DNA from: a virus
Length of the DNA stretch: 64,000 bases
Virus record (IMG/VR): IMGVR_UViG_3300003323_001142
Span: 37,032-101,031 of that record
Direction: 5' to 3' (one strand)
Shown: positions 6,295 through 64,000 of the stretch, piece by piece
How the letters are laid out: each line of letters opens with the position of its first letter
How positions within the stretch are numbered: the first letter of the stretch is position 1
Made by a program: the position numbers and the translations under genes
Notes under the pieces: generated by a model
What the model saw: the letters and a program-made list of their open reading frames with translations, nothing else
The model's database searches: none
What the model was told of the DNA's origin: nothing

Positions 6295-7778
6295 CGCTTC
6301 CCCCCGAGATCGCCGCCGTGCTCGAGAGTCGTGCGCGCTGGGGCGTAGCGCTCGGTGATTGTCTCGATCTCATGAAGCTACTGCCTAACGCGTCCGTCGA
6401 CGCTGTGGTTGGGGATCCGCCATCGGGCATGGGCTTTATGGGCAAGGAATGGGATGACTTCCGACGCTCACGCAACAAGGCCGATGCTGGTCGCGATAGC
6501 GTGTTCGGTCGAATGAGCTCGCGGGCTCCCGAATACGGCCGCGGCGATCGCGGTCGATTTGTCACCTGGCTCGCCGAGCGGCTGGCCGAGTCTCAGCGTG
6601 TTCTGAAACCGGGAGGTTATGCGCTCGTGTGGGGTATTCCGAAGCTGAGCCACTGGACCGCGTGGGCGATCGAGGATGCTGGATTCGAGCTTCAGGACCG
6701 CATCACGCACATCTTCGGATCCGGCAGCGGTGCCGGCGCACTCGATGTTTCCAAAGCCATTGATAAGGAGCTCGGGACCACCGAGCACCGCGAGATCGTG
6801 GGCCGCTATCGCGTCAGCGGCAACGCACTGACACCGACATCGAAGAAAGGGGGCACCTATGGCGTCGGCGTTCCGAACGCGGAGCCCGGCGAGCTCACGC
6901 GCACTACTGGAGGGAGCCCGGAAGCCAAGAGCTTCGACGGCTGGAAGAGCCAGCTCAAGCCCGCGGTGGAGGACTGGTACATCGCGATGAAGCCACTCGA
7001 CGGCACGTATGCCAACAATGCGCTGAAGCACGGGCTCGCCGGCATGAACATCGATGCATGCCGCGTCGGCAACGATTGGGAGCACGAACCCGGCCGGCCG
7101 GAGAGTTGGAGGCGGAGCGGAGTTTCGGCGAAGCCCGACGCGCCCAAGATCGCCGCTCCACCCGGACAGGGGATGATCCTCCATCCGGACGGAAGATACC
7201 CGGCACACCTGGTTCTTTCGCATGACGATGATTGCGTACCAGACGGTCCGTGCGGCGCTGGATGTCCAGTGCGCGCGCTGGACGAGCAGAGCGGTCATCT
7301 GAAAAGTGGGCGCTTTCCAGACGGGGTCACCTACGCTCGAGGCAAATCGAACGTCTATGGGGAGAGCCGAACAGCTTCCGCCACGATTCACGGCGACGAA
7401 GGGGGCGCCTCCCGTTACTTCAACACCTTCTACCCGTTCCACTACGAAAAGAAGGCATCAAGAGCCGAGCGCGATGCCGGCTGCGAGCACATCCCACCGA
7501 AGCAAGACGACGGCCCGCACAATCATCATCCGACGGTCAAGAACCTGGACCTTATGGGCTGGCTGTGCCGTCTCATCACGAGGCCAGGTGGGCTCATTCT
7601 CGATCCGTTCCTCGGTTCCGGATCGACCGGATGCGCCGCGATGCGCGAAGGCTTTCGATTCATCGGCTTCGAAGGGGGCTGCGACGAAAGCGCCGAGTAC
7701 ATCGAGATCGCGCGTGCGCGCATTCAACACTGGCATGAGCAGACGGTGGGACCGCTCTTCACGAGGGTGGCCACATGA
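6291..7778 (+). CDS. Site-specific DNA methyltransferase, beta-type motif order
   Basis: A 495-residue protein; I chose ATG 6291 (AGGAGG upstream, ATGA overlap). The catalytic motif is DAVVGDPPSGM at about residue 38, where the usual DPPY/SPPY has Ser in the last position. The SAM-binding motif LDPFLGSGSTGCAA lies near residue 440 and is followed by FIGFE. The order (motif IV before motif I) is that of beta-class N4-cytosine or N6-adenine methyltransferases. The roughly 400 residues between are long and probably hold target recognition. It probably protects phage DNA; the site is unknown. Confidence 0.88.
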   Translation: MTLPPEIAAVLESRARWGVALGDCLDLMKLLPNASVDAVVGDPPSGMGFMGKEWDDFRRSRNKADAGRDSVFGRMSSRAPEYGRGDRGRFVTWLAERLAESQRVLKPGGYALVWGIPKLSHWTAWAIEDAGFELQDRITHIFGSGSGAGALDVSKAIDKELGTTEHREIVGRYRVSGNALTPTSKKGGTYGVGVPNAEPGELTRTTGGSPEAKSFDGWKSQLKPAVEDWYIAMKPLDGTYANNALKHGLAGMNIDACRVGNDWEHEPGRPESWRRSGVSAKPDAPKIAAPPGQGMILHPDGRYPAHLVLSHDDDCVPDGPCGAGCPVRALDEQSGHLKSGRFPDGVTYARGKSNVYGESRTASATIHGDEGGASRYFNTFYPFHYEKKASRAERDAGCEHIPPKQDDGPHNHHPTVKNLDLMGWLCRLITRPGGLILDPFLGSGSTGCAAMREGFRFIGFEGGCDESAEYIEIARARIQHWHEQTVGPLFTRVAT

Positions 7779-8410
7779 CCGCGCAAGCATCACTTCCCGG
7801 TATCCAGCCCACCGAATGGGGCGGCGAGCTGGACTTCTACGAGACCCCATCGTTCGCCCTCGACGCTCTCCTCCCCTTCATTCCAGCGCGCTTCCGACAG
7901 CCGATGGCCTTCGACCTCATCGAACCATGCGCCGGTCGCGGAGCGATCGTGCGGTGGGCCGTCGAGACGCTTCGGCCGGCGCTCGTCAATGCTGTCGAGA
8001 TTCACCATGGGCGCTTCGATGAGCTTTTCGCGCTGCGGGGCTCGTGCCCGAACGGGTCGGGATTCTTACACGCCGACTTTTTGAAGTTGCCAACCAATAG
8101 CTTTCGAGTGTGGCGGCCGCTCCTGGTGGTTACGAACTCTCCCTACTCCGAACCACGCGAGACGATTGCGCGCGAGATTTGCGAGCACGCCCTCGAGGTC
8201 GTCGGCCCCAGCGGATGCGTCGCGATGCTGCTCCCGCTCGGGTTTGCCGAGGGGGTCGACCGCGCCGAGAGGATCCACGATCACTATCCGAGCTCGGTCT
8301 ACGTGTTCCGCCGGCGGCCGCGATTCGGCGGTGACCAGGGGGGACAGCGGCCCTTCGCTTGGTTTTGCTGGGATCGGCTCGAGCCGAAGAACGAGTGGAG
8401 GAGCATTTGA
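7775..8410 (+). CDS. Second SAM-dependent DNA methyltransferase-like protein
   Basis: A 211-residue protein in a four-base overlap with the previous methyltransferase. EPCAGRGAIVRW (about residue 50) is a SAM-binding motif I, and VVTNSPYSEP (about residue 112) is a motif IV of the (N/D)-x-P-Y type with Ser for the first Pro. A C-terminal strand has FAWFCW. It resembles small phage adenine methyltransferases. The NSPY variant may alter activity or mark a degenerate enzyme. Confidence 0.75.
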   Translation: MTAQASLPGIQPTEWGGELDFYETPSFALDALLPFIPARFRQPMAFDLIEPCAGRGAIVRWAVETLRPALVNAVEIHHGRFDELFALRGSCPNGSGFLHADFLKLPTNSFRVWRPLLVVTNSPYSEPRETIAREICEHALEVVGPSGCVAMLLPLGFAEGVDRAERIHDHYPSSVYVFRRRPRFGGDQGGQRPFAWFCWDRLEPKNEWRSI

Positions 8411-8766
8411 CCGCTCCCGTCTGTCCTACCTGCGGCCCCGACGCTTCGATCGACTGTGGCCCGCCTGACGCCACCGGCTCGTTCGATTGGCGGTGTGCTG
8501 GCTGCGATGTGGCGCGGCGGAGGATTGAGATCGAGGGGGTGGACTTCGATGCGCTGGAGCGGGCACTCGCGGCCCCCGCGGTCGCGGTGGAGTCCAACCT
8601 CGAACCGGCCGCGGCCACAGTCGAGCGCGTTACGAAGCCATCCTGCCCCTGCTGCGGCAGCGCGGACAAGGTGACCTCGGCATCCTGCTCGGTGCCCTCA
8701 TGTCGGCATTGGAGCTGCGGTGCGTGCCGGTCGAGTTTCTATCCGCGAGAGGAGAGCGCGGCGTGA
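8407..8766 (+). CDS. Double Zn-ribbon protein (TTG start)
   Basis: A 119-residue protein starting at TTG 8407, with GGAGGAG just upstream and a TTGA overlap with the methyltransferase stop. It has CPTCG and CAGCD near the N-terminus and CPCCGS, CSVPSC and CGAC near the C-terminus: two or three zinc-binding sites. Function is unknown. It may assist the methyltransferases, but this is only positional inference. Confidence 0.65.
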   Translation: MTAPVCPTCGPDASIDCGPPDATGSFDWRCAGCDVARRRIEIEGVDFDALERALAAPAVAVESNLEPAAATVERVTKPSCPCCGSADKVTSASCSVPSCRHWSCGACRSSFYPREESAA

Positions 8767-8821
8767 GCGGCTGTTACCATATTGGTGTTGGACTATCTGG
8801 AATACTGGAGGGAATGGTGCT

Positions 8822-9496
8822 GTGACTATTGAAACAACAGACAAGACACGGGCATTGATCGACCGGTGGCTCCAGAATCAGTCCGACATGCTCCATCATC
8901 GGCTTTCTGTTTGTGGTTCACCGATTGAGCAGCTACTGATGATGGCAATGGTGACGATCCGGCCACCGTTTGATCGACCCTGGCCAGAGTTCGTACCAGA
9001 TTGGTTTCGAGGCGAATCGAACCAAACATTCTACGGGTGCGCATTCGTCAGCGTCTCTGATTGCGTCCCCGCTTACTGGGGCGATCGCATAGTAGGCGAA
9101 GGGATTTCGGGGCATATGCTCGTCGGTCTTGACGGGCACGAGTTCCAAGATACCGAATACCGAATTGTTGTTGCTCAGCCGCAGCTCACTCTCTCTGGCA
9201 GGCGGATCCGGCCAGACTTTGTCGTGCTCGATCGTGGCGTAAAAGTCGTTGTTGAGTGTGACGGCCACGAGTTCCACGAACGAACAAAGGAGCAGGCCGA
9301 GAATGATAAGAGTAGAGACAGGCTGCTGTCTTCCCGTGGATGGAAGGTGCTCAGGTTTACGGGATCGGAGATATATCGCGATCCGGTCGGATGCGTGAAC
9401 GAGATCGAGGGAATAATCGAGGAGGCTCTATTGCCTGAGCGATTGCGTATTGCATCAAGAAATCGAGGCGTGGTCCCCGAAAAGGGGAGACAGTGA
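8822..9496 (+). CDS. DUF559/Vsr-like PD-(D/E)XK nuclease
   Basis: A 224-residue protein; GTG 8822 has GGAGGG at 8-base spacing. The C-terminal half shows the core of DUF559/Vsr-type nucleases: RPDFVVLD, VVVECDGHEFH, a basic helix (KEQAENDKSRDRLL) and GWKVLRFTGSEIYRDP. The N-terminal 110 residues have no clear match. Base composition and codon use are clearly AT-richer than both neighbours, a sign of recent acquisition. It may be a phage defence, repair or restriction-type nuclease placed next to two methyltransferases; the substrate is unknown. Confidence 0.75.
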   Translation: MTIETTDKTRALIDRWLQNQSDMLHHRLSVCGSPIEQLLMMAMVTIRPPFDRPWPEFVPDWFRGESNQTFYGCAFVSVSDCVPAYWGDRIVGEGISGHMLVGLDGHEFQDTEYRIVVAQPQLTLSGRRIRPDFVVLDRGVKVVVECDGHEFHERTKEQAENDKSRDRLLSSRGWKVLRFTGSEIYRDPVGCVNEIEGIIEEALLPERLRIASRNRGVVPEKGRQ

Positions 9497-44293: not shown

Positions 44294-45778
44294 ATGCCCG
44301 CAACGCTCGACGATCTGCCCGGCGCGCTCGACGTTCCGACGCGCGACGCGGAGCGCGACCGGTGGCTGCAAGACTACCAGTTTCGCGATCCTGGTACCGA
44401 CACGTCGGCAGGGACCGAGCCGTACGTCCGCGGGAGCGTGTTTGCCGACATGGTGATGCCGCTCTACGCGAACAGCGTTACCAGCGCGAACGCGACCGAC
44501 CCAAGCAAGGTGTCGGGTCCGGAACTCGACGTGCGCGCCGGCGCCGTCATCGGGCCGAGGCTACCGCAGCGGCCCGGATCGGGTTCGGTCACCATTACCG
44601 CATCGGTCGGAGGCACGACGATCTTCGTCGGCGACGAGCTCACCGCCAACGGGCTGCGGTTCAAGTGCAACGCGACCGCGCTCTACAATGACGGCGACCA
44701 AGTGCCCGTCATCGGTATCGACGCGGGCCCGGCCACGAACCTCGCCCCCGGGACCATCCTCACCTGGTCGAATCCGAGACCCGGGTGTGGCCCGAACGCC
44801 ACCGTCTTCCAGAACGTCGACGGTACCGGCTTCACCGGTGGCCGCAACGAAGAGACCGACGAGGAGTACCGAAAGCGCTGGACCCACGCGCTCCAGTCGC
44901 CCGCGGCAAGCGGCAACGATGCCGAGATCCAGGCGCTCGCGGAAGCCACCTTCGGCGTTCCGGTCGAGAAAGCGTTCACCTACCCGGCGATCCTCGGCCC
45001 CGGTACGTCGGGGCTTGTGTTCACGATCCGTGTGGACGCCCCGGGGCAGAGTCGGATCCCGGACGGGACGCAGATTGCGCTCGTGGCCGGCAACGTCTCG
45101 AGCGCGATGCCGGCCGACGAGGCGATCATCGCCTGCTCGCTCGGCTCGGTTCCGATCGACGTAACGCTATCCATCACCTGGGACGACGGCGCTCCGGGCT
45201 GGCAAGACGCGACGACCTGGCCCCCGTACTACTCGGCCGGAGGGGCCATCAAGGTCACGGCCGCGACGAGTCCCACGAGCTTCACGGTGAACGGGACAAC
45301 CACGGTGCAGCCGCAGGTCGGACAGCACATCGCCGTCTACTCTCGGCCGACGGGGCTCTTTTTTCGGAAGACGATCCTGTCGTTCACCGGAACCGGCCCG
45401 TGGGTCATCACCTGCGACGCCACGAACAACGCGAGCGACCTTTCGTACACCCCAGTCGTTGGCCAGCGGGTATGCCCCTGGTCGGACTCGCTCCAGGACA
45501 TCGTTTCGCCGATGTTCAACTACTTCAAGACGCTTGGGCCCGGCGAGCAGCTCGCGGTGTTCTTCGATACGGGCACGCGCCAGCGCAGGCAGCCCCAGAG
45601 CCCCCATTCGTGGCCGAGCGTGATTAGCAACAAGGGGATCGCGACTGCCATCGAGATCAGCTCGATCTTTGACGCTGCGGTGCTTGAGCCCACGGTGCCG
45701 CTGGCGACGACGATCGGGAGCCAAGGCGTGATCAGCAACCTGATGGAAATGAACTTTCTGGCGGCGTTCCCGCAATAG
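44294..45778 (+). CDS. Baseplate J-like protein (Mu gp47-like)
   Basis: A 494-residue protein. SVFADMVMPLYANSVTSAN near the start, GSGSVTITASVGGTTIFVGD with FKCNATALYNDGDQVP, and the FTGGRNEETDEEYRKRW motif followed by GNDAEIQALAEATF are hallmarks of the Baseplate_J family (gpJ/gp47). The C-terminal third is longer than in Mu and beta-rich (SFTVNGTTTVQPQVGQHIAV). It forms the outer wedge of the baseplate. Confidence 0.85.
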   Translation: MPATLDDLPGALDVPTRDAERDRWLQDYQFRDPGTDTSAGTEPYVRGSVFADMVMPLYANSVTSANATDPSKVSGPELDVRAGAVIGPRLPQRPGSGSVTITASVGGTTIFVGDELTANGLRFKCNATALYNDGDQVPVIGIDAGPATNLAPGTILTWSNPRPGCGPNATVFQNVDGTGFTGGRNEETDEEYRKRWTHALQSPAASGNDAEIQALAEATFGVPVEKAFTYPAILGPGTSGLVFTIRVDAPGQSRIPDGTQIALVAGNVSSAMPADEAIIACSLGSVPIDVTLSITWDDGAPGWQDATTWPPYYSAGGAIKVTAATSPTSFTVNGTTTVQPQVGQHIAVYSRPTGLFFRKTILSFTGTGPWVITCDATNNASDLSYTPVVGQRVCPWSDSLQDIVSPMFNYFKTLGPGEQLAVFFDTGTRQRRQPQSPHSWPSVISNKGIATAIEISSIFDAAVLEPTVPLATTIGSQGVISNLMEMNFLAAFPQ

Positions 45779-49720: not shown

Positions 49721-50134
49721 ATGCCCACGGTATCCCACCCCCGCGAGCCCAGCAAGCTCGCGACCATCCACATTTTCCCCGCTCTCGCTCGGGCGCCCGA
49801 GCCGCCCCGAGCTAGCCGCCGGTCGGATGCGATCCTCAGCGAGGCCACCCGCTACGGCGAATCGCTCCGCGTCCGCTGGCTGTCCAACGAGCCGCTGACG
49901 CGCCGGGAGTTCGTCCGGGCCGACCGGCTGATCCAGCGGGCCTACCGGGCGCTCTGCACGGAGTACGCGGCCAGCGGGCTCACTGCGGCCGACCGCCACT
50001 GGTTCATGGGCGCATGCACGGGGCTCGGGATGACCGACAGCTTCGTGTCCGACTGGCTGCGGGACTCGGAGCCGGGGAAGGTCGTGGATTTGGGGAGGGC
50101 GCGGAGGGCGAGACGGAAGGGGGCGGGGCGATGA
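49721..50134 (+). CDS. Hypothetical protein upstream of antirepressor
   Basis: A 137-residue protein with AGGAGGG and ATG 49721, driven by the TTGACA promoter. It begins Pro/Ala-rich and has a helical centre (EPLTRREFVRADRLIQRAY) and WFMGACTGLGMTDSFVSDWL, ending in a basic tail. The family is unknown. It overlaps the antirepressor gene by four bases. Confidence 0.6.
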   Translation: MPTVSHPREPSKLATIHIFPALARAPEPPRASRRSDAILSEATRYGESLRVRWLSNEPLTRREFVRADRLIQRAYRALCTEYAASGLTAADRHWFMGACTGLGMTDSFVSDWLRDSEPGKVVDLGRARRARRKGAGR

Positions 50135-50952
50135 AGGGGCGGAAAGAGGGAAGCGAGGGATCGATGCAGCAGTTGGAAAAGTACGAGTTTGACGGCGACC
50201 AACTCGACCTGCTCAGGCAGGAGACGCGAGTTGCGGTGGTCGTGCGCCGCGTTTGCGAAGCGCTCGGGATTAGCGAGGAACCGCAACGCCGTAAGCTTCG
50301 AGAGTGCGCATGGGCGCGCGCCACCATAATGGTGGCACACGACGCAAGCGGCCGAGAACAGGAGCTATTCTGCCTCGACCTCGACTCGCTACCGATGTGG
50401 TTGGCAACGATCAATCCGGGCAAGGTCCGGGAAGAACTCCGCCCCAAGCTCATCCGATATCAGCGGGAGTGCGCTCAAGTCCTACGAGATCATTTCTTGA
50501 AGGCGCCTAGCAAGCCGGCCGCTATCGATAGAGAGGAGCTCCTGGCGATACTGTCCGGCATGCTGGGCCCGAGCCTTGGTCAGATGCTCGACCGTCAAAT
50601 CGCAGCCCGGCTCGACCCGGTCATCGCCAGGATCGAGTCTGCCTTCGGCACGGTCCAGCAGCACCCAGAGGGCCTACTCCCGCGCGCGGAGCTCAAAGAT
50701 CACCCGACGGAGCTCGCGCAGTGCCGGAGTCTCATTACGCAGACGGCGAGAGCACTGGGCGTCAGTTGGAACAAGGTGCAGGGCGAGCTCCTGAAGAAAT
50801 ACCAGGTCCGTTCTTACCGCCGCCTTCCCTTCATGGTCTGGGATGCGGCGCGCGACCTCTTGATTGCAATGATGGCCGCTGCGCCCGTGCCCAAGAAAAA
50901 CGCTCGCGGCTACCAGAGATCCCTGTTCGATTTCGCGCCGAAGCCGAACTAG
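50131..50952 (+). CDS. Phage antirepressor (P22_AR_N domain)
   Basis: A 273-residue protein (ATG 50131, ATGA overlap; ATG 50164 after GAGGGA is an alternative). Residues about 35-130 match the P22 antirepressor N-terminal domain: RRVCEALGISEEPQRRKL, ELFCLDLDSLPMWLATINPG and LIRYQRECAQVLRDHF. The C-terminus has a helical link and a basic domain with RSLITQTARALGVSWNKVQG. Antirepressors inactivate phage repressors and favour lysis. Here it is paired with an RHH protein like P22 ant with mnt/arc. Confidence 0.85.
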   Translation: MKGRKEGSEGSMQQLEKYEFDGDQLDLLRQETRVAVVVRRVCEALGISEEPQRRKLRECAWARATIMVAHDASGREQELFCLDLDSLPMWLATINPGKVREELRPKLIRYQRECAQVLRDHFLKAPSKPAAIDREELLAILSGMLGPSLGQMLDRQIAARLDPVIARIESAFGTVQQHPEGLLPRAELKDHPTELAQCRSLITQTARALGVSWNKVQGELLKKYQVRSYRRLPFMVWDAARDLLIAMMAAAPVPKKNARGYQRSLFDFAPKPN

Positions 50953-53799: not shown

Positions 53800-55698
53800 A
53801 TGGCGTTCGTGCTAGGCTTTGCCAACAACGAGACCGATCGGGTCGTCTTCGCGGACGGCACCGGTCTATCGTTCAAGCTCGGCAAGATCGTCGGCGCGAC
53901 GATCACGAACCTGTTCACGTTCGCGGACAGCGGCGTGCTCACGGTCGCGAGCGGTATCACGATCTCGGCCTTCTCGGTCGCGGGTGTCGTCCACAACACC
54001 TCGGCTGGGGTCCTCACGACCGGCCAGGTGGTCGCGGCAGAGATCGCTTCGGTCAACTGGAGCGTCGTCCTCGGCACCCCGACCACGCTCTCCGGATATG
54101 GCATCACGGATGCCGTCAGCGCAAGCCGGACCGTCGTCGGCGGCGCAGGACTCACCGCGAGCGGCGGTCCGCTCGGGTCCAGCAACGTCACCCTGAATGT
54201 TGTCGCCAACGCGGACGGCTCGATTGTCGTCAACGCGGATGACATCCAGGTAGGCGTGCTCGCCACCGATGCCCAGCACGGCAACCGCGGGGGCGGCGCG
54301 CTGCACGTGGCGGTGTCCAATGCGGTAGCTGGATTCGCGCCTGCGATCTCGGGCTCGAACCGCATCCACGCCAGCACCAACGGCACGTCGTCGACCTGGA
54401 CCCAGGTCGTGGATGCCATGGTGTCGGATGTCAGTTTTGCGAAGGTCACCGGCCGACCGACGACGCTGAGCGGTTACGGGATCACCGATGCGGTCCCGAA
54501 TACGCGGACGCTGACCGGGACGGCTCCGATCACGATCGCCGGCGACAACGCGGCGCACGATCTTTCGGTGAACCGCACGATCGCGGTGTCCAATGCGGAC
54601 ACCAGCAACGTCGGCGTGCTCCGGCTGGCCAATGACTTCGCGGGTACGGCCACGGCGCCTACCGTGGTGCAGCTCACGGGGGCGGCAGGTACGGTCGCGG
54701 TCCTGGCGTCGAACTTCCTCTGGGGCGCGAACGTATCGTCGCCATCGATCAAGCAGACGCAATCCACGTTCGGGGCCGGGTTTGCGTTCCAGATCTACGC
54801 CCAGCAAGGCCACGCCGGAAGTCGCGGCGGCACGCTGCAACTGGGCGGCGGCCCTGGCGGCACGAGCGGCACCAATCTCGCGGGCGACGTGCAATTCGAT
54901 CTCGGCGTTTCGGTCTCGAATGCCTCTGCCCATCTGACCGCGTTCTCCGACAGCTTCACGGTGCTCGACGTAGCGCGGACCGCGCTCAACACCGTCACGG
55001 TCGACACGAACTCGCTGGCCACGTTCCTATTCAACAAGCCGATCGGTATTTTTGCCGATGCTGGTTCGGGTGGCGGCCCCAACAGCGGCGAGTATTCGCT
55101 GGCCGTGGGGAACAGTTCCCTGTCCGGCAAGGACAAGGTGTTCATGGCCGTCGGCGGGGGCCAGCCGGTTAGCGATTCGACGCCGCGATACTACTTCACG
55201 GTCGCGCCAGGCACGAACGACGTTACCAGCAATACGCCAGTCTCGGCGCTGGCGACAGTGCACATCGGGCAGCAAACGTTCCACTCGATTACGGACGCCA
55301 CGCGGAGCGTCTCCGGACCGCTCGCGACGCTGCTCATCGACGATGCGCCGTCTCTTACCGGTGCTTTCTGGGCCGGCGGACAAGCGACGTATGCGCTCTA
55401 TGTGGCGTCTGGGGTCGCACACTTCGGGGGCGGCGTCGAGTTTGCGTCCAACTCGTTCTTGGTTGGAGCGGTCGGGTCCGCGCCGCTCTTCATCGATTCA
55501 CTCGGCCAAGTGTTTCTCGGCGACGGGACCAACGAGGTCCGGATCAACGGGGGCGGGGGGATCACCATCAGCCCGGCCACGACGACAACGTCCGCGAGCA
55601 GCGGGACGGCGTTCGCCCTGCCCGGCAACCCGCACGGCTACCTGAAGCTCCGCGTCGGCAGCCTGGACGTGGTGTTCCCGTTCTGGCTGCCGCCGTAA
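53800..55698 (+). CDS. Long tail fibre protein
   Basis: A 632-residue protein, low in charge and rich in Ser, Thr, Gly and Val. The module TTLSGYGITDAV occurs twice (from nt about 54080 and 54460), a repeat known from phage fibres. The middle has RGGTLQLGGGPGGTSGTNL, and the C-terminus is GNPHGYLKLRVGSLDVVFPF, probably a trimer-forming tip. No chaperone-type peptidase is evident. Confidence 0.75.
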   Translation: MAFVLGFANNETDRVVFADGTGLSFKLGKIVGATITNLFTFADSGVLTVASGITISAFSVAGVVHNTSAGVLTTGQVVAAEIASVNWSVVLGTPTTLSGYGITDAVSASRTVVGGAGLTASGGPLGSSNVTLNVVANADGSIVVNADDIQVGVLATDAQHGNRGGGALHVAVSNAVAGFAPAISGSNRIHASTNGTSSTWTQVVDAMVSDVSFAKVTGRPTTLSGYGITDAVPNTRTLTGTAPITIAGDNAAHDLSVNRTIAVSNADTSNVGVLRLANDFAGTATAPTVVQLTGAAGTVAVLASNFLWGANVSSPSIKQTQSTFGAGFAFQIYAQQGHAGSRGGTLQLGGGPGGTSGTNLAGDVQFDLGVSVSNASAHLTAFSDSFTVLDVARTALNTVTVDTNSLATFLFNKPIGIFADAGSGGGPNSGEYSLAVGNSSLSGKDKVFMAVGGGQPVSDSTPRYYFTVAPGTNDVTSNTPVSALATVHIGQQTFHSITDATRSVSGPLATLLIDDAPSLTGAFWAGGQATYALYVASGVAHFGGGVEFASNSFLVGAVGSAPLFIDSLGQVFLGDGTNEVRINGGGGITISPATTTTSASSGTAFALPGNPHGYLKLRVGSLDVVFPFWLPP

Positions 55699-57993: not shown

Positions 57994-58190
57994 GCGCCGC
58001 TCTGATGATTGCCTCGTGCGCGCAAAACCTCCGCAAAATCCGTGACGACTACGAGAACACAGGAGACTGGTGGGGCTGCCTCGACAACGCCATCGCTTAC
58101 CTAGATTCCTGTCTCGCCGCTGCTCCGCCCGGGATGATGGGCGGCTGTCACGCCGATGAGAGGCCGAAGTATTTGAAGGGCAAGCCATGA
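57990..58190 (+). CDS. Small hypothetical protein
   Basis: A 66-residue protein (ATG 57990, ATGA overlap). A helical sequence with NLRKIRDDYENTGDWWGCLD, four Cys in total, and a short basic tail. No family; likely co-translated with its neighbours on both sides. Confidence 0.5.
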   Translation: MSAALMIASCAQNLRKIRDDYENTGDWWGCLDNAIAYLDSCLAAAPPGMMGGCHADERPKYLKGKP

Positions 58191-58477
58191 ACGAGACCGA
58201 AGCACTTTCGAAGGCGATGCAGATCTTGGACGAACTCGACGCGGATGCCCGCGAGCGGGTGATGGCGTATCTGCAAAGCCGCTACGGAAAGAAGCAGGCG
58301 GCGCAACCGGTCGCGCCAGCGCCGCAACTCATCCCGATGCCGTATCCCGTCCCGGCTCCGATGCCGATACCGGACACGCATCCGCCGATCTGGCCGACGC
58401 CGTCGCCGTATCTGCCTCATCCGGATCTGGGGCCACGCATCTGGTGGATGGGCTGCGGTGGCGGAACGTTCCAATGA
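58187..58477 (+). CDS. Small helix plus Pro-rich tail protein
   Basis: A 96-residue protein (ATG 58187, ATGA overlap). An N-terminal helix (ALSKAMQILDELDADARERV then YLQSRYG) is followed by a Pro-rich half (PMPYPVPAPMPIP) and WWMGCGGGTFQ. Unknown. Confidence 0.5.
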   Translation: MNETEALSKAMQILDELDADARERVMAYLQSRYGKKQAAQPVAPAPQLIPMPYPVPAPMPIPDTHPPIWPTPSPYLPHPDLGPRIWWMGCGGGTFQ

Positions 58478-59250
58478 ACGACACCCAGCTCCGCCCCGAC
58501 ACCCTCGTCACCGTCGGCGTCGTGAATCGTTCGACGTTGCTCTCCGCCGCCAATTGGGCCCCCATGGCCGGCCTCGTGAACGTCCAGCTCGCCAACGATT
58601 TCGGTCCAGCGTGGGGCATCTGGTGGGCGCTCGCCGAGGCGACCGAGGATGCAATCGCGAGCTACCGCGTGCAGATCGTGATCGTCGACGAGCTCCCCGA
58701 GGCGCCCGCGGGCGTCCTGGGCTTCCACAACGAAACCGCCGCCGGCGGCATCCGCGGCTACGTCGCCGTTAAGCCCGTGCTCGACGCGGGCGGCGTCCCG
58801 CTGCTCGATCCCGAGCGACCGCAGCGCCCGACCGTGCTTTCGGTGCTCTCGCATGAGGTCCTCGAGGCCGCGGTGGATCCCTTTTGCGCCGATTGGTCGC
58901 TGGGGCCGGAACGGAACGAGGGGGCGCTTTACGCGAAGGAGATCGGGGACCCGGTCGAAAGCCTCCAATACACCGTTGCGCTCCCTAGTGGTGAGCGTGG
59001 CGCAGTGTCGGACTTTTGCCTTCCGGCCTTCTTCGACCCTCGTGCCGCGCCCGGCACCAAAGTCGACTTCATTGGCCAGTGCCCCGGCCCGTTCCAGCTC
59101 ACCACCGGCGGCTACATGAGCGTGATGTCGGCAGGGTACCAGCTCGCGCAGATTTACGCCGACAACCGCCGTCCCTGGAAGCACGAAGGCAAAGCCACAA
59201 GCCTCCGCTCGCGCCACCGTGCCGCGCACGTCGCGCGCCTCTGCAAATAA
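58474..59250 (+). CDS. Zincin-like putative metallopeptidase
   Basis: A 258-residue protein (ATG 58474, ATGA overlap). SVLSHEVLEAAVDPFCADW has an HExxE core and about 35 residues on is YAKEIGDPVE, matching the SHE(L/V)xEAxxDP...EIGD signature of a family of zinc-dependent peptidase-like proteins. The classic HExxH second His is replaced by Glu, so ligands must be completed elsewhere. A role in cleaving host surface or virion protein is possible; activity is unproven. Confidence 0.6.
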   Translation: MNDTQLRPDTLVTVGVVNRSTLLSAANWAPMAGLVNVQLANDFGPAWGIWWALAEATEDAIASYRVQIVIVDELPEAPAGVLGFHNETAAGGIRGYVAVKPVLDAGGVPLLDPERPQRPTVLSVLSHEVLEAAVDPFCADWSLGPERNEGALYAKEIGDPVESLQYTVALPSGERGAVSDFCLPAFFDPRAAPGTKVDFIGQCPGPFQLTTGGYMSVMSAGYQLAQIYADNRRPWKHEGKATSLRSRHRAAHVARLCK

Positions 59251-59324
59251 ACGTCTACGCCGGCCCGGGCGCTTGAGCGCGGCCGCCCACCTTCCCCACC
59301 GCGATCGCGTCCGGGCCCGGCGTG

Positions 59325-59348
59325 GGCCTAATCGGTAACGGTTAGGCC
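59325..59348. other. Short hairpin in a 182-base gap
   Basis: GGCCTAA (59325-59331) and TTAGGCC (59342-59348) are exact inverted repeats with a 10-base loop. The gap (59251-59432) has no gene. No T-run follows, so termination is doubtful; it may be an operator or mRNA stem. Confidence 0.35.
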
Positions 59349-59432
59349 GTCATAGGTATTGCCAATAGCAAGAGCCGACCCGCGAGGGGCGGCTGGAGTC
59401 GTTTTGTCACCGCAAACAGGAGAACCGAGAAC

Positions 59433-59678
59433 ATGAAATGTCTCATTTCGGGAGAAGAGATCGACAACAATAAGCAGTTTCTGCCGGAGGATCCGAAAAA
59501 CCCGATCTCCGTTGCGGCGGCTGCCTATGCCGAACAGAAGCACGGCGAGCAACTCGCCAAGTGGCCCTTTGTGACCGTCTCCGTGACGGCCAATGGAGGC
59601 CAGAACGTGCTCTTCGCTGGTCACGTCAGTCCGAGCGTCAATCTCAATGACCTCGCCCTCACCGTCAAAGGAAAGTAA
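59433..59678 (+). CDS. Small hypothetical protein
   Basis: An 81-residue protein (ATG 59433, CAGGAGA upstream). Starts MKCLISGEEIDNNKQFLPED; helix YAEQKHGEQLAKWPFVTVSV and a final strand. A small, probably soluble protein of unknown role, expressed after a fresh leader. Confidence 0.55.
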   Translation: MKCLISGEEIDNNKQFLPEDPKNPISVAAAAYAEQKHGEQLAKWPFVTVSVTANGGQNVLFAGHVSPSVNLNDLALTVKGK

Positions 59679-59681
59679 TCC

Positions 59682-60125
59682 ATGAGCACCTACGTCATCG
59701 TTGGGACGCAGACCTCTGCGTCCAAAACTGCACTGACGGCGATCACCGCTACCACGATCCAGCCGCGCATTCTGCAGTTCACCATTTCCAACATCGGCAC
59801 CGTGTCGGTCGACTCGGGCGCGCAGATCCAGCTGAAGAAGTTTACCGCTGCGGGTACCACAACTGCCGTGACCCCGGCAGCGACCGACGGCTCTCCCGCC
59901 GCGACCTTCACCGCGGGATCGAACGCTACCGTCGAGCCGACCTACACCGCGAATACCACCGTATTCGATCGCTCCGTCAACCCGCGGTCGACCTACACGG
60001 CGAACGCGTACGACTTCCGAGCGGAGTGGGTATTCAACTCGACCGCAGCGAACGGCTACGGTTGGTTCGTCAACGCGCTCGGCGGCTTCACTACGGTGAA
60101 CGTCGAGGCGCTCATCCAGCAGTAA
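59682..60125 (+). CDS. Beta-rich putative virion protein
   Basis: A 147-residue protein (ATG 59682). Almost all strands and turns, Thr/Ala/Ser-rich (SASKTALTAITATTIQPRIL, AGSNATVEPTYTANTTVFDR). It resembles small structural proteins or fibre tips, and lies directly before the spike gene cluster. No family assigned. Confidence 0.55.
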   Translation: MSTYVIVGTQTSASKTALTAITATTIQPRILQFTISNIGTVSVDSGAQIQLKKFTAAGTTTAVTPAATDGSPAATFTAGSNATVEPTYTANTTVFDRSVNPRSTYTANAYDFRAEWVFNSTAANGYGWFVNALGGFTTVNVEALIQQ

Positions 60126-60129
60126 GCCC

Positions 60130-60411
60130 ATGGTCAGCATCCGCGTGCGGCAAAGGCACAACTGCCGCGTGATCATCGAAGAGACGAACCCGGACGTGAA
60201 CAACGGACGGCCCGTGCAACGGGACGGGTTCGCGTGCTCTCACTGCCAGAGGCTCGTCGTCGAGGCCGAGGGCGACGAGGGCGGTTTCTGTCGGCAATGC
60301 ATGGCCCCGGTCTGCATCGTCTGCGGTCGCCAGGAGCGTTGCGATCCGTTCGAGGAAAAACTCGCACGAGAGTTTGCTCGCCAGCGGATGCTGTCGTCAA
60401 TGGGTATCTGA
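60130..60411 (+). CDS. Zn-finger protein
   Basis: A 93-residue protein (ATG 60130). Middle: CSHCQRLVVEAEGDEGGFC, then CMAPVCIVCG and CDPF, seven Cys arranged as two zinc-binding knuckles, with a helical tail. Similar small zinc proteins occur near fibre genes in phages. Function unknown. Confidence 0.6.
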   Translation: MVSIRVRQRHNCRVIIEETNPDVNNGRPVQRDGFACSHCQRLVVEAEGDEGGFCRQCMAPVCIVCGRQERCDPFEEKLAREFARQRMLSSMGI

Positions 60412-60439
60412 AAACAATCGTCTCTTGAGAACGAGCGTA

Positions 60440-60491
60440 GGCGTCGGCTGGGACACGTGTGTCGTGGTTCCGGCCGACGCCTTTCGTGTTT
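60440..60491 (+). terminator. Probable intrinsic terminator
   Basis: GGCGTCGGC (60440-60448) pairs with GCCGACGCC (60473-60481), and TTTCGTGTTT follows. The loop also contains GACACGTGTGTC. It lies in the 97-base gap between the Zn-finger and spike genes. The T-run is interrupted, so termination may be partial. Confidence 0.5.
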
Positions 60492-60508
60492 GGGCGCGCG
60501 AGATCTAA

Positions 60509-63500
60509 ATGACCATTGCTCTCCTGCAAGAGGTAAGCGCCGAGAATGTCAATATCTCGGCTACTACCATCGCCGTCACGATCACCGGCGTGACCGCAGG
60601 GAGCACTCTTGTTGCCACGGTCACCGTTGACGACACGGGCAGCAACGCGACGATCTCGGTGTCGGATGGTACGTCGTACACGCCCGTCGATCAGGACCGA
60701 GAGACCACCGACGTTCAGTTCACAAAGAACTTCTATCTTCCGAACGCTGGCGCTGGATCCCATACGGTCACAGCCACATACGACTCATCTCGGCTCGCGC
60801 GAGGGATCGTCGTCGCGGAGATTGGTGGGGCAGCAACAACCAGCCCGCTCAATGCCCATAACGTAGGCGAGCAACCGACGCCAGGAACAGGCACCGACGG
60901 TGTCACGATCTCGACGACCAACACGGTCCAGCCGGTTGGCATTTACGGCGTCAGCTTCCGAGTCCCTGGCGGAGCCGCGCCCGCGGCCGGTACCGGATTC
61001 ACGGGACCTGGCGGCGGTGCAACGAATACGTTCTGGAACTTCACGACCGCGGCCCAGGCGCGGTCGGAGTTCAAGCGCGTAACGACGATCGGGACGCAGT
61101 CGGCCACCTGGACCGCTGCCGGCAACACCGAGCACTCGTCCTTTATCCTTGTTTTCGCGGAGTCCGGCGCGACCGGCGGGAATGCCGCTTGGGGCTATGA
61201 GCAGCCGCAGCAGCCGAGCCAGCGTGTCGTCCGCGCCTACTCGATCCCGAAAGCGGTCGAAGGATTCGGGCCGCTCCCTGGGCTGCCCGCCACCGCGCTG
61301 ACCGCTTGGCAGAACGATCAGCAGCAATGGCCGGTCAAGCCTTCGCGCGGCGACCAAACGGTCAACCCGTCGCCGGTCGTCTTCACGCCGACCACGCCGG
61401 TTGATTTCGGCAATGACACGCCTGCTCCCCAGCCGAAACCGTCGAGAGGAGACCAACGGGTCAACCCGGCTCCCACGGTCTTCGCTCAAGCAACCCCTGT
61501 AGGCTTCGGAAACGACACTCCCGCGCCGCAGCCCAAGCCGTCTCGTGGCGATCAGTCGCTCAATCCCGCGCCGGCCCCGTTCCCTGGAACGACGCCGGTC
61601 GACTGGACGAACGAGCCACAAGCGCCGCAGGTCAAGCGAAGCCTTGGCGAGCGCAGGCAATACGCCGACAGCTTCCCGACGCCACCGGCTGTCGTTATCG
61701 GTCCGTCCGGGTTCGAACCGCCAGCACCACGCGTCAATCCGTTCCGCGCCGAACGGCGACTGCCGAACGGAGAGCCTCTCCCCGCGCCGAAGCTTCTGTG
61801 GCCGCTCTCGATTCATTCGAGCGGCCGCTATCTGGTCGATGCTTCCGGGGCTCCGTTCTTCCACTACGGGATCTCGGCTTGGTCGATCTTCACCGAGCCC
61901 GATGATTACCGCCCGCTCGTCGACGATGCCGCCGCGCTCGGCATCAACATGTTGCTTGTCCGCTTTATCGACAAGACAACGCACAACGCGCCAAACCTTC
62001 GCGACGGTACGGCCCCGTTCAACACCCCCGGCGACTTCACTACCCTCAACAACGCGTACGCAATCCGGTTCCGGGATTTCATCCGCTACTGCGCGGCGCG
62101 AGGAATCTTCGTCTGGGTCGCCTTCGCCTACGATGGTTTCGCGGGCGCATCGACTGATGGTTGGCGACCGGAGAAGGTGTCGAATGGCACGACCGGCTGC
62201 AACACGCTCGGTCTCTCGATCGGCACTGTCCTCAAAGATGAGCTGAATGTCGGGGCGATTCCCGGTGGCGACTTCACTCCGCCCGGGACTGACCATCTCG
62301 ACCAAAATCTGATCGCGGGCCTCCAGACGAATGCGCCGCAGATCACGTTGGTGATGGCGCATCCGGATCAGTCCACGCGCTCGCCGCAGTGGACTGTGTC
62401 CGACGACTACCCGAACGTCACGTCGACAGTCCGCGGCTGCTACTCGTGGTTCGGCGACACCGGCGGCAACAACCGCACAATCTACACCGTAGGCCGATCG
62501 CAATACAACGCGAGCCCGACGAGGCCAGTCGTCTACCTCGAGGCCGAGTATCGAGAGAACACGCTCAATACACAGCTCGGGACCGACTTCACGACGCGCT
62601 TTCAGGCAATCGCGTTCTGGCTCGAGTCGGTCAACGGGTTCGGGCCGGGCGTCGGCGCCGAAGGCTTTTGGCCAGCCCTTCTCTCCGGCGAGCCGCACGG
62701 CACGATCCCTCCGCAAGCGCAGGGAAAAGACTGGTCGGTATCGATTGCGCTCCCGTGCTTCACGCAATTGCAGAACGTGAAGGCGTTCGCCACCTCCCGA
62801 TCGTGGTGGAAGCTCGTTCCCGACCAGGGGAGCACGCTGGTCACTGCCGGCCGCGGTACATACGGCACCGACAGCTATCGCAACGCGGCCCTCGCGTCCG
62901 ATGGCTCGTTCGGCCTGGTGTACCTGCCAACCGGTAGCACCGGCGGCACGGTCACCGTCGACATGACCAAGTTCTACGGGCCGGTCTTGGCCCGCTGGTG
63001 GTCCCCGACAACCAATAGCTACACGTCCATCAACAGCGGCGTTCCGTTTCAGCCGACGGGCACGCAGACGTTTACCGCCCCGAGCACAAGCGACTTCATC
63101 CTCGCACTCGACGCGAGCCCTGTCTTCTCCCCGACGATCCAGCCGCAAGAGCCGCAGAAGCCAAGGCAGGAGCGATCCCTCCTAGTTTCGGCATCTCCGG
63201 ATCCGATCCCGGCGCTCGCATCCGCAGCGATCACGGCGTACGGCTGGGAGGCCATCGCGGCCCGCGTCTTCGGTGCGCCGCTCTCTCGCCGCTCTTTCGG
63301 TGGCGACATTCTGGCCGCGCTTCCGCTTGCTGTCGGCTGGGGATTCGATCCCGTCCCGTTCGTTCCTAAGCCGAGCGCTGGAGTCCGACCGCTGCCGCCC
63401 GACTTGCTACCCCCGGTGACGCTGGCCGTCACTTGGGGCTGGGACCCCATGGGTCCGCCCGGGCATCCGACGCCCGCAAAGAGATCGGGGCCCTCCGACT

Positions 63501-64000
63501 TCATCCCGACCCCGTCGCTGCTCGCGGTCACCTGGGGGTGGGATCCGGCTGGACCGCCGTCGCATCCCGGCAAAGCCTCGCTCTCCGCCGGCGGAGACGT
63601 TCCCCCGCCCGTGATGCTCGCCGTGGACTGGGGTTGGGAGCCCATGGGCCCTGTTCCTCGGTTCGTGCGACCGACGCTGTCCTGGGGCGGTGAGCCGCTC
63701 CCGCCGCCACCGCTTGCCGTGGCGTGGGGCTGGGACTGGCCCGGACCGACCCATCGGCAGTTCACAGCCGCGAACCGCCATCCGATTGGTGACCCCTGGC
63801 CGGCCCTGGCCATCGTGACGCTTCCGCCGTGGGGCTTCGAGCCGCCCACGCCGCGATCGCGGCTTGGTGCGGCGGACAGGCGCCTCACCTACGAGCCGCC
63901 GTTTCCTGCGGTGGCGAACGTTACCCTGCCGCCATGGGGGTTCGAGCCGCCGACTCCGGCCGGCAAGGCGTCTCGGCCGAACCGCCAGCCGTTCGCGGAG
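60509..64000 (+). CDS. Tailspike with DUF4038 (apiosidase-like) glycoside hydrolase domain, incomplete
   Basis: An open frame of 1164 codons from ATG 60509, running off the right edge. Residues 1-150 form a beta domain starting MTIALLQE. Residues about 275-430 hold 33-residue repeats (KPSRGDQ-x-x-NP) at nt 61337, 61436 and 61535. The catalytic domain (430-760) has LVDASGAPFFHYGISAWSIF, ALGINMLLVRF, ARGIFVWVAFAYDG and VVYLEAEYREN, as in DUF4038. LVYLPTGSTGGTVTVDM and ARWWSPTT mark Collagen_bind_2 (about 770-860). The end has seven WG(W/F)(D/E) repeats. Probably degrades host surface polysaccharide. Confidence 0.8.
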   Translation, partial: MTIALLQEVSAENVNISATTIAVTITGVTAGSTLVATVTVDDTGSNATISVSDGTSYTPVDQDRETTDVQFTKNFYLPNAGAGSHTVTATYDSSRLARGIVVAEIGGAATTSPLNAHNVGEQPTPGTGTDGVTISTTNTVQPVGIYGVSFRVPGGAAPAAGTGFTGPGGGATNTFWNFTTAAQARSEFKRVTTIGTQSATWTAAGNTEHSSFILVFAESGATGGNAAWGYEQPQQPSQRVVRAYSIPKAVEGFGPLPGLPATALTAWQNDQQQWPVKPSRGDQTVNPSPVVFTPTTPVDFGNDTPAPQPKPSRGDQRVNPAPTVFAQATPVGFGNDTPAPQPKPSRGDQSLNPAPAPFPGTTPVDWTNEPQAPQVKRSLGERRQYADSFPTPPAVVIGPSGFEPPAPRVNPFRAERRLPNGEPLPAPKLLWPLSIHSSGRYLVDASGAPFFHYGISAWSIFTEPDDYRPLVDDAAALGINMLLVRFIDKTTHNAPNLRDGTAPFNTPGDFTTLNNAYAIRFRDFIRYCAARGIFVWVAFAYDGFAGASTDGWRPEKVSNGTTGCNTLGLSIGTVLKDELNVGAIPGGDFTPPGTDHLDQNLIAGLQTNAPQITLVMAHPDQSTRSPQWTVSDDYPNVTSTVRGCYSWFGDTGGNNRTIYTVGRSQYNASPTRPVVYLEAEYRENTLNTQLGTDFTTRFQAIAFWLESVNGFGPGVGAEGFWPALLSGEPHGTIPPQAQGKDWSVSIALPCFTQLQNVKAFATSRSWWKLVPDQGSTLVTAGRGTYGTDSYRNAALASDGSFGLVYLPTGSTGGTVTVDMTKFYGPVLARWWSPTTNSYTSINSGVPFQPTGTQTFTAPSTSDFILALDASPVFSPTIQPQEPQKPRQERSLLVSASPDPIPALASAAITAYGWEAIAARVFGAPLSRRSFGGDILAALPLAVGWGFDPVPFVPKPSAGVRPLPPDLLPPVTLAVTWGWDPMGPPGHPTPAKRSGPSDFIPTPSLLAVTWGWDPAGPPSHPGKASLSAGGDVPPPVMLAVDWGWEPMGPVPRFVRPTLSWGGEPLPPPPLAVAWGWDWPGPTHRQFTAANRHPIGDPWPALAIVTLPPWGFEPPTPRSRLGAADRRLTYEPPFPAVANVTLPPWGFEPPTPAGKASRPNRQPFAE

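Follow-up and report, generated by a model that had tools for sequence, protein, structure and literature searches.

What does an apiosidase-like glycoside hydrolase domain do within a long, repeat-rich protein encoded in a phage tail module? The question is raised by IMG/VR virus record IMGVR_UViG_3300003323_001142, of which a stretch of 64,000 nucleotides was analysed (the window; bases 37032-101031 of the 101,031-base record). The open reading frame (ORF) that runs to the end of the window most likely encodes a long tail fibre or spike of a Mu-like phage, whose GH140-type hydrolase would bind and cut an exopolysaccharide or capsule glycan of the host. Judging from sequence and predicted structure, we put the probability of this reading at about 0.72.

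The enzyme is carried within a proline-rich repeat array: the catalytic domain and its beta-sandwich together span residues 433-870, and repeats lie on both sides. The parts of the gene, all on the + strand, are as follows.

60509..64000, +, spike or fibre ORF, with an ATG start and 1164 codons in the window, open at the window end
60509..61186, +, N-terminal region (residues 1-226), predicted to be mostly beta; low-confidence model (predicted local distance difference test, pLDDT, 46)
61190..61804, +, imperfect repeats 5' of the enzyme (residues 228-432), with clear units from residue 300, 33-34 residues apart
61820..62812, +, Apiosidase-like/GH140-type catalytic domain (residues 438-768)
62270..62272, +, Asp588, putative catalytic residue, equivalent to BT_1012 Asp187
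62540..62542, +, Glu678, putative catalytic residue, equivalent to BT_1012 Glu284
62873..63109, +, Collagen_bind_2 or glycoside hydrolase-associated C-terminal beta-sandwich (residues 789-867), a marginal Pfam match
63242..64000, +, proline-rich W-G-[WYF]-[DE]-P repeats (residues 912-1164 in the window, continuing to about 1311 past the record junction)

The window ends where the record ends, and the ORF stops at this edge. Record bases 1-495 hold an open frame in register with the last window codon and closed by a stop codon, and the joined protein has 1328 residues. The initial annotation, which placed the gene at 60509-64000, was thus right within the window and fell short of the last 164 codons, which lie beyond it. 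The record ends share no overlap in the tested range of 10 to 300 bases. Both the frame and the repeats carry on across the ends once these are joined, and the record most plausibly represents a circle that was opened within the spike or fibre gene. In the joined protein the C-side repeats measure about 33 residues and keep a spacing of 31-35 unbroken across the junction (...1108, 1143, 1174, 1206, 1239, 1273). A regular expression found eleven W-G-[WYF]-[DE] units from residue 944, preceded by one degenerate unit, and proline accounts for 21% of residues 871-1312. These repeats most likely serve as spacers that project the hydrolase away from the virion tail.

Family, fold and active site of the enzyme

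The initial annotation had proposed a DUF4038 plus Collagen_bind_2 pair, and Pfam bears this out. PF13204 (Apiosidase-like, formerly DUF4038) matched residues 438-768 over profile positions 3-320 of 320 with 77 bits (E 2.6e-21; cut-off 26.5). PF12904 (Collagen_bind_2) matched residues 789-867 marginally, with 23.9 bits just above the cut-off of 22 (E 3.7e-5). An AlphaFold2 (AF2) model of residues 424-870, built from an alignment of 10 sequences, had a mean pLDDT of 70.6 and a predicted template modelling score of 0.80; model residues 196-232 are of very low confidence and unreliable. Foldseek searches with this model ranked the GH140 apiosidase 8t9w first (E 1.5e-25), followed by BT_1012 (5msy, 3kzs) and BVU_2644 (4qfu). 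VIA-align Z scores were 36.9 (8t9w), 33.7 (5msy), 33.1 (3kzs) and 32.8 (4qfu); beyond the GH140 entries they were 22.7 for 4n0r, itself a weak match to the profile (E 2.4e-7), and 21.8 for the GH5 mannanase 1rh9. The superposition on 8t9w had a root-mean-square deviation of 2.7 over 398 residues and reached model residue 447, which is protein residue 870. The domain is therefore predicted to form a (beta/alpha)8 barrel followed by a C-terminal beta-sandwich, in line with the triosephosphate isomerase (TIM) barrel hydrolase suggested earlier, and the beta-sandwich would pack against the barrel as in BT_1012.

The catalytic acids, which the initial annotation expected a structure prediction to reveal, are retained. 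The available text of PMC4032388 describes Asp187 and Glu284 of BT_1012 as its putative catalytic pair and lists Trp63 and Tyr287 among the conserved aromatics. In a phmmer alignment, chain positions 167 and 264 pair with Asp588 and Glu678 of the window protein, the numbering offset of 20 being inferred from its fit to both catalytic residues. Asp588 and Glu678 are invariant in all 11 aligned sequences; Trp458 and Tyr681, at aromatic positions of the BT_1012 cleft, are kept in 10 of 10, and a Tyr occupies the position of BT_1012 Trp149. Neither of the two results named initially as contradicting the annotation, a missing TIM-barrel hydrolase match or a model without the acidic residues, was seen. 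The window domain thus resembles the GH140 apiosidases (BT_1012, 3kzs and 5msy; 8t9w) in its predicted TIM barrel and beta-sandwich, in its Asp and Glu, and in Z scores of 33-37. It differs from them in being only 18-21% identical by structural alignment, in being embedded in a much longer repeat-rich phage protein, and in having WWKLVPD in place of the ...RVPDQ of 8t9w and 3kzs. It also stands apart from GH5 enzymes, for which a Glu-Glu pair is described (available text of PMC4032388 and PMC9544554) in place of the Asp-Glu pair here, with Asp588 at the first position; the best GH5 fold match had a Z of 21.8 against 36.9 for GH140.

Tail module and adaptor gene

The gene content marks the virus as a Mu-like, contractile-tailed phage: genes for a terminase large subunit, portal, Mu-like protease, tail sheath, baseplate hub proteins and baseplate J lie upstream of the spike; weaker upstream matches were to a tape-measure protein and Mu Gp48. 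Two of these upstream genes, in the same module as the spike, are:

44294..45778, +, baseplate J-like gene, one of the contractile-tail genes that precede the spike
53800..55698, +, tail-fibre-like gene (phrog_7389, 2.7e-7), upstream of the spike

The terminase matched six deposited phage records, all with proteobacterial hosts, and the portal matched 173, mostly with proteobacterial hosts and also with Nodularia, Meiothermus and Faecalibacterium. The myxobacterial host suggested in the initial annotation gained no support from any result, though no search was aimed at it. A gene for a P22_AR-type antirepressor was seen at window positions 50014-50952, after the baseplate genes and before the fibre-like gene.

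The gene that follows the spike, across the record junction, encodes two Gp77 'fibre-tail adaptor' domains, both above the Pfam cut-off; the adaptor role is taken from the Pfam name. Nine regions around Gp77-like genes of deposited phages were viewed. In Gordonia, Rhodococcus and Mycobacterium phages such genes have minor tail protein genes close by, and in one of the nine regions, that of the Burkholderia phage BcepMigl, a Gp77-like gene detected by tblastn comes directly after a pectin lyase-like gene and before tail fibre genes. The window gene sits in a tail module beside a Gp77-type adaptor gene, as in the BcepMigl parallel, and its most natural interpretation is therefore a phage tail spike or fibre, in agreement with the spike assignment made initially; the protein would then be part of the virion. 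The pectin lyase-like beta-helix tailspikes (BcepMigl gp58) share with it this position directly upstream of a Gp77-like gene, and differ in catalytic fold. No beta-helix tailspike profile of Pfam or PHROGs matched the window protein, the repeats and N-terminal region of which are without a reliable model. A Gp77-like stretch in Rhodococcus phage REQ1 (JN116825.1 25168-25428) lies under a primase/polymerase annotation and is possibly misannotated.

Phage carriers and bacterial relatives

Profile scans found the domain in three further IMG/VR phage contigs (L009, L010 and L036), with PF13204 scores of 193, 127 and 133 bits, respectively; the scans relied on short peptide patterns, so there are at least this many phage carriers. 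PF12904 passed its cut-off in L009 and L036 but fell short of it in L010. In L010, the enzyme is preceded by an N-terminal region and followed by a repeat-rich tail within one 870-residue protein, and genes for tail proteins, for a VanY-type peptidase and for an integrase lie around it. L036 encodes a stand-alone enzyme of 466 residues followed by a repeat-rich protein of 1218 residues, in the neighbourhood of a lambda-type portal, an S49 protease and capsid protein E. L009, a 5.3-kb piece, holds a virion-protein-like ORF, an enzyme of 438 residues and then a repeat-rich ORF. With the repeats of these three contigs judged by eye, two of the four contigs (the window and L010) encode the enzyme and the repeats as one protein, and in the other two the enzyme lies directly upstream of a long repeat-rich ORF.

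As single-sequence queries, the window domain, the N-terminal part, the C-side repeats and the upstream fibre retrieved no viral-contig relative, and L010 and L009 retrieved only themselves and each other. Among deposited phage records, L010 and L009 matched 2 and 4, respectively, 4 of them distinct. Two of these were 3.9-kb Listeria phage records. The fecal 'Bacteriophage sp.' records MT835628.1 and MT835684.1 were rejected as phage carriers and taken as bacterial contigs, because their ten scanned ORFs matched SusD, TonB receptor, rhamnosidase, GH2, GH95, sugar-transporter, histidine kinase and AraC-type families and no phage family; they look like polysaccharide-utilisation loci. BFVD listed 17 more weakly similar viral proteins (E up to 0.001; A0A6J5R1U1 ranked first, with E 1e-12 and TMq 0.62), some of which may belong to the same group as the window enzyme.

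One scan of genome contigs gave seven relatives of the window domain at 26-28% identity, all bacterial, in a sample biased to look-alikes since they were fetched by short query peptide patterns that included WWKLVPDQ. Neighbouring genes were tested for four of them (L002, L005, L006 and L008), with L003, L004 and L007 left out. In all three rhizobial loci (L002, L005, L006) the neighbours include glycosyltransferases, polysaccharide pyruvyl transferase or polysaccharide flippase-type genes. The Rhizobium polysaccharide-synthesis locus L006 has two DUF4038 genes (L006:3122-4537 and 7324-8916), which suggests that they help to process polysaccharide made by the cell itself. The rhizobial proteins share the catalytic domain and acids with the window protein, to which they are about 27% identical in this domain, and group with the phage domains; they differ in being stand-alone enzymes of about 445-530 residues. 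The WWKLVPD block, which occurs in the rhizobial copies found by pattern and was not seen in the second L006 copy, was set aside as a subgroup mark: it had itself been a search pattern and is no proof alone. In an Omnitrophota bin, a 2401-residue open frame (L007:91-7293) carries a DUF4038-type enzyme at its end.

A tree of 14 rows, from which L036 and the diverged bacterial copies L022-L025 were left out, falls into two sides. One holds the three phage domains, the rhizobial domains and a second copy from the L008 genome; the other holds L007, L008 and two gut polysaccharide-locus sequences. Support for the split was 98/98, and 96/98 and 100/98 when one long branch was omitted. In this small and biased tree, then, the phage domains appear to group with enzymes of rhizobial polysaccharide loci and not with the gut pectin-type enzymes. 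A single origin of the phage domains was not accepted: support was 78/90 with all three, and the window domain and L010 are long branches that may attract each other. Without L010, the window and L009 paired at 97/95; without the window domain, L009 and L010 paired at 38/21.

Substrate, alternatives and significance

During adsorption, the enzyme of the proposed spike would grip and cleave a host exopolysaccharide or capsule glycan by means of Asp588 and Glu678, and this cleavage would clear a path to the cell surface. Because the rhizobial relatives adjoin polysaccharide-synthesis genes and the phage domains group with them, a bacterial exopolysaccharide seems a likelier substrate than plant apiosides. 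The initial annotation had suggested a branched polysaccharide of a myxobacterial matrix as a possible target. The closest working precedent we saw is gp095 of phage S6 (Schitoviridae), a GH5 cellulase and likewise a phage-borne GH-A-type glycosidase; the available text of PMC9544554 reports that it degrades a cellulose model substrate and acts on biofilm polysaccharide, and that cellulose is the first receptor of S6.

Several observations weigh against the reading as a hydrolase-bearing spike. The window domain is diverged, scoring 81 bits in a search that gave 233-265 for the five best bacterial copies, and is without the Trp usual in the N-I-I-W strand. The blocks around the two catalytic acids have moderate pLDDT values of 57 and 58, and neither the repeats nor the N-terminal region (pLDDT 46) could be modelled reliably. 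None of 50,697 deposited phage records was matched by the window domain or the whole protein, and neither PHROGs nor NCBIfam has a family that the ORF matched. The three other phage contigs, all possibly fragments, lack a Gp77 match, which limits the adaptor argument to the phage of the window. The pattern-based retrieval of the bacterial relatives also counts here, as does the acidobacterial L008, whose DUF4038 gene is neighboured by genes for an outer-membrane beta-barrel protein and an S15 peptidase and does not lie in an exopolysaccharide locus.

The same divergence (77 bits), together with the moderate model confidence of the active-site loops and the very low confidence of model residues 196-232, would suit a non-catalytic glycan-binding fibre in which the GH140 fold is kept solely as a lectin-like receptor-binding module. 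This we consider improbable, given that no aligned sequence has lost the catalytic acids (11 of 11) or the cleft residues Trp458 and Tyr681 (10 of 10). Distinctly less probable is an enzyme for plant or algal apiose glycans, such as debris resembling rhamnogalacturonan-II (cf. BT_1012), that would have an auxiliary function on the virion or be released at lysis. The closest solved structures are indeed GH140 apiosidases, and BT1012 is a beta-apiosidase that cuts the Api-GalA linkage (PMC7939467, available text). However, at 18-21% identity this specificity is not transferable to the window domain; the domain groups, in a biased sample, with rhizobial polysaccharide-synthesis loci and not with the two gut polysaccharide-locus sequences; no other pectin enzyme was present among 16 window proteins scanned with Pfam; and the architecture is spike-like, with an adaptor gene. 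It is very unlikely indeed that the gene encodes a secreted bacterial hydrolase at a prophage edge or in a chimeric contig and not a virion protein, as the bacterial nature of the DUF4038 proteins from the genome scan and the position at the record end might suggest, since the frame and repeats continue at the first base of the record and run into a phage adaptor gene, the domain occurs in three other phage contigs, and no signal peptide was seen by eye at the protein start.

The tail fibre or spike with a GH140-type hydrolase would follow a known strategy, that of depolymerase spikes, with an enzyme unusual for a phage. Most known phage depolymerases are built on a beta-helix. Barrels of the GH5 type form a known minority (PMC9544554, available text), and no paper on DUF4038 or apiosidase in phage spikes was found in the open-licence literature. 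If true, the reading would add a catalytic fold to the phage depolymerase repertoire, offer a tool for cutting bacterial exopolysaccharides, and tie little-studied hydrolases of rhizobial polysaccharide loci to phage attack. The four contigs supply several candidate constructs for testing it. More speculative, and in our estimate rather doubtful, is the wider idea of a phage-borne GH140-type depolymerase lineage, split from the pectin apiosidases, that would share ancestry with exopolysaccharide-processing enzymes of Rhizobiaceae and others. Such a lineage would move between unrelated tailed phages, fused into or placed beside long repeat fibres, and its members would cut bacterial exopolysaccharides with an apiose-like or other branched pentofuranose linkage.

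The N-terminal region (residues 1-226) belongs to no known family and had no significant relative in BLAST and hhalign comparisons. Homology of this region to L009, L010, L036 and two Microcystis phages (Mae-JY04 and Mwe-JY26) was not demonstrated. Against L009, BLAST gave E 0.007 over 28 residues and hhalign scored 19.6, where 20 shuffles reached no more than 16.8; with a profile built from the other five sequences the score was 15.6, and shuffles went up to 20.9. Of the other N-terminal sequences, L009, L036 and Mwe-JY26 exceeded their own 10 shuffles (E 0.006 to 0.1); Mae-JY04 and L010 stayed within theirs. A C-terminal R-x-[FL]-x-V motif, common to the window protein and the protein upstream of the Gp77 gene in Mae-JY04, was not used; it occurs in one of four other phages' proteins upstream of Gp77-like genes.

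The spike gene shares with the portal, sheath, tape-measure and fibre genes a G+C maximum at the third codon position. A long antisense ORF at 60785-63148 has its G+C maximum at the first codon position, unlike the spike frame. Seven terminator-like sites, some overlapping and all seven on the minus strand, lie in window positions 58000-61000, where shuffled sequences gave a mean of 2.5.

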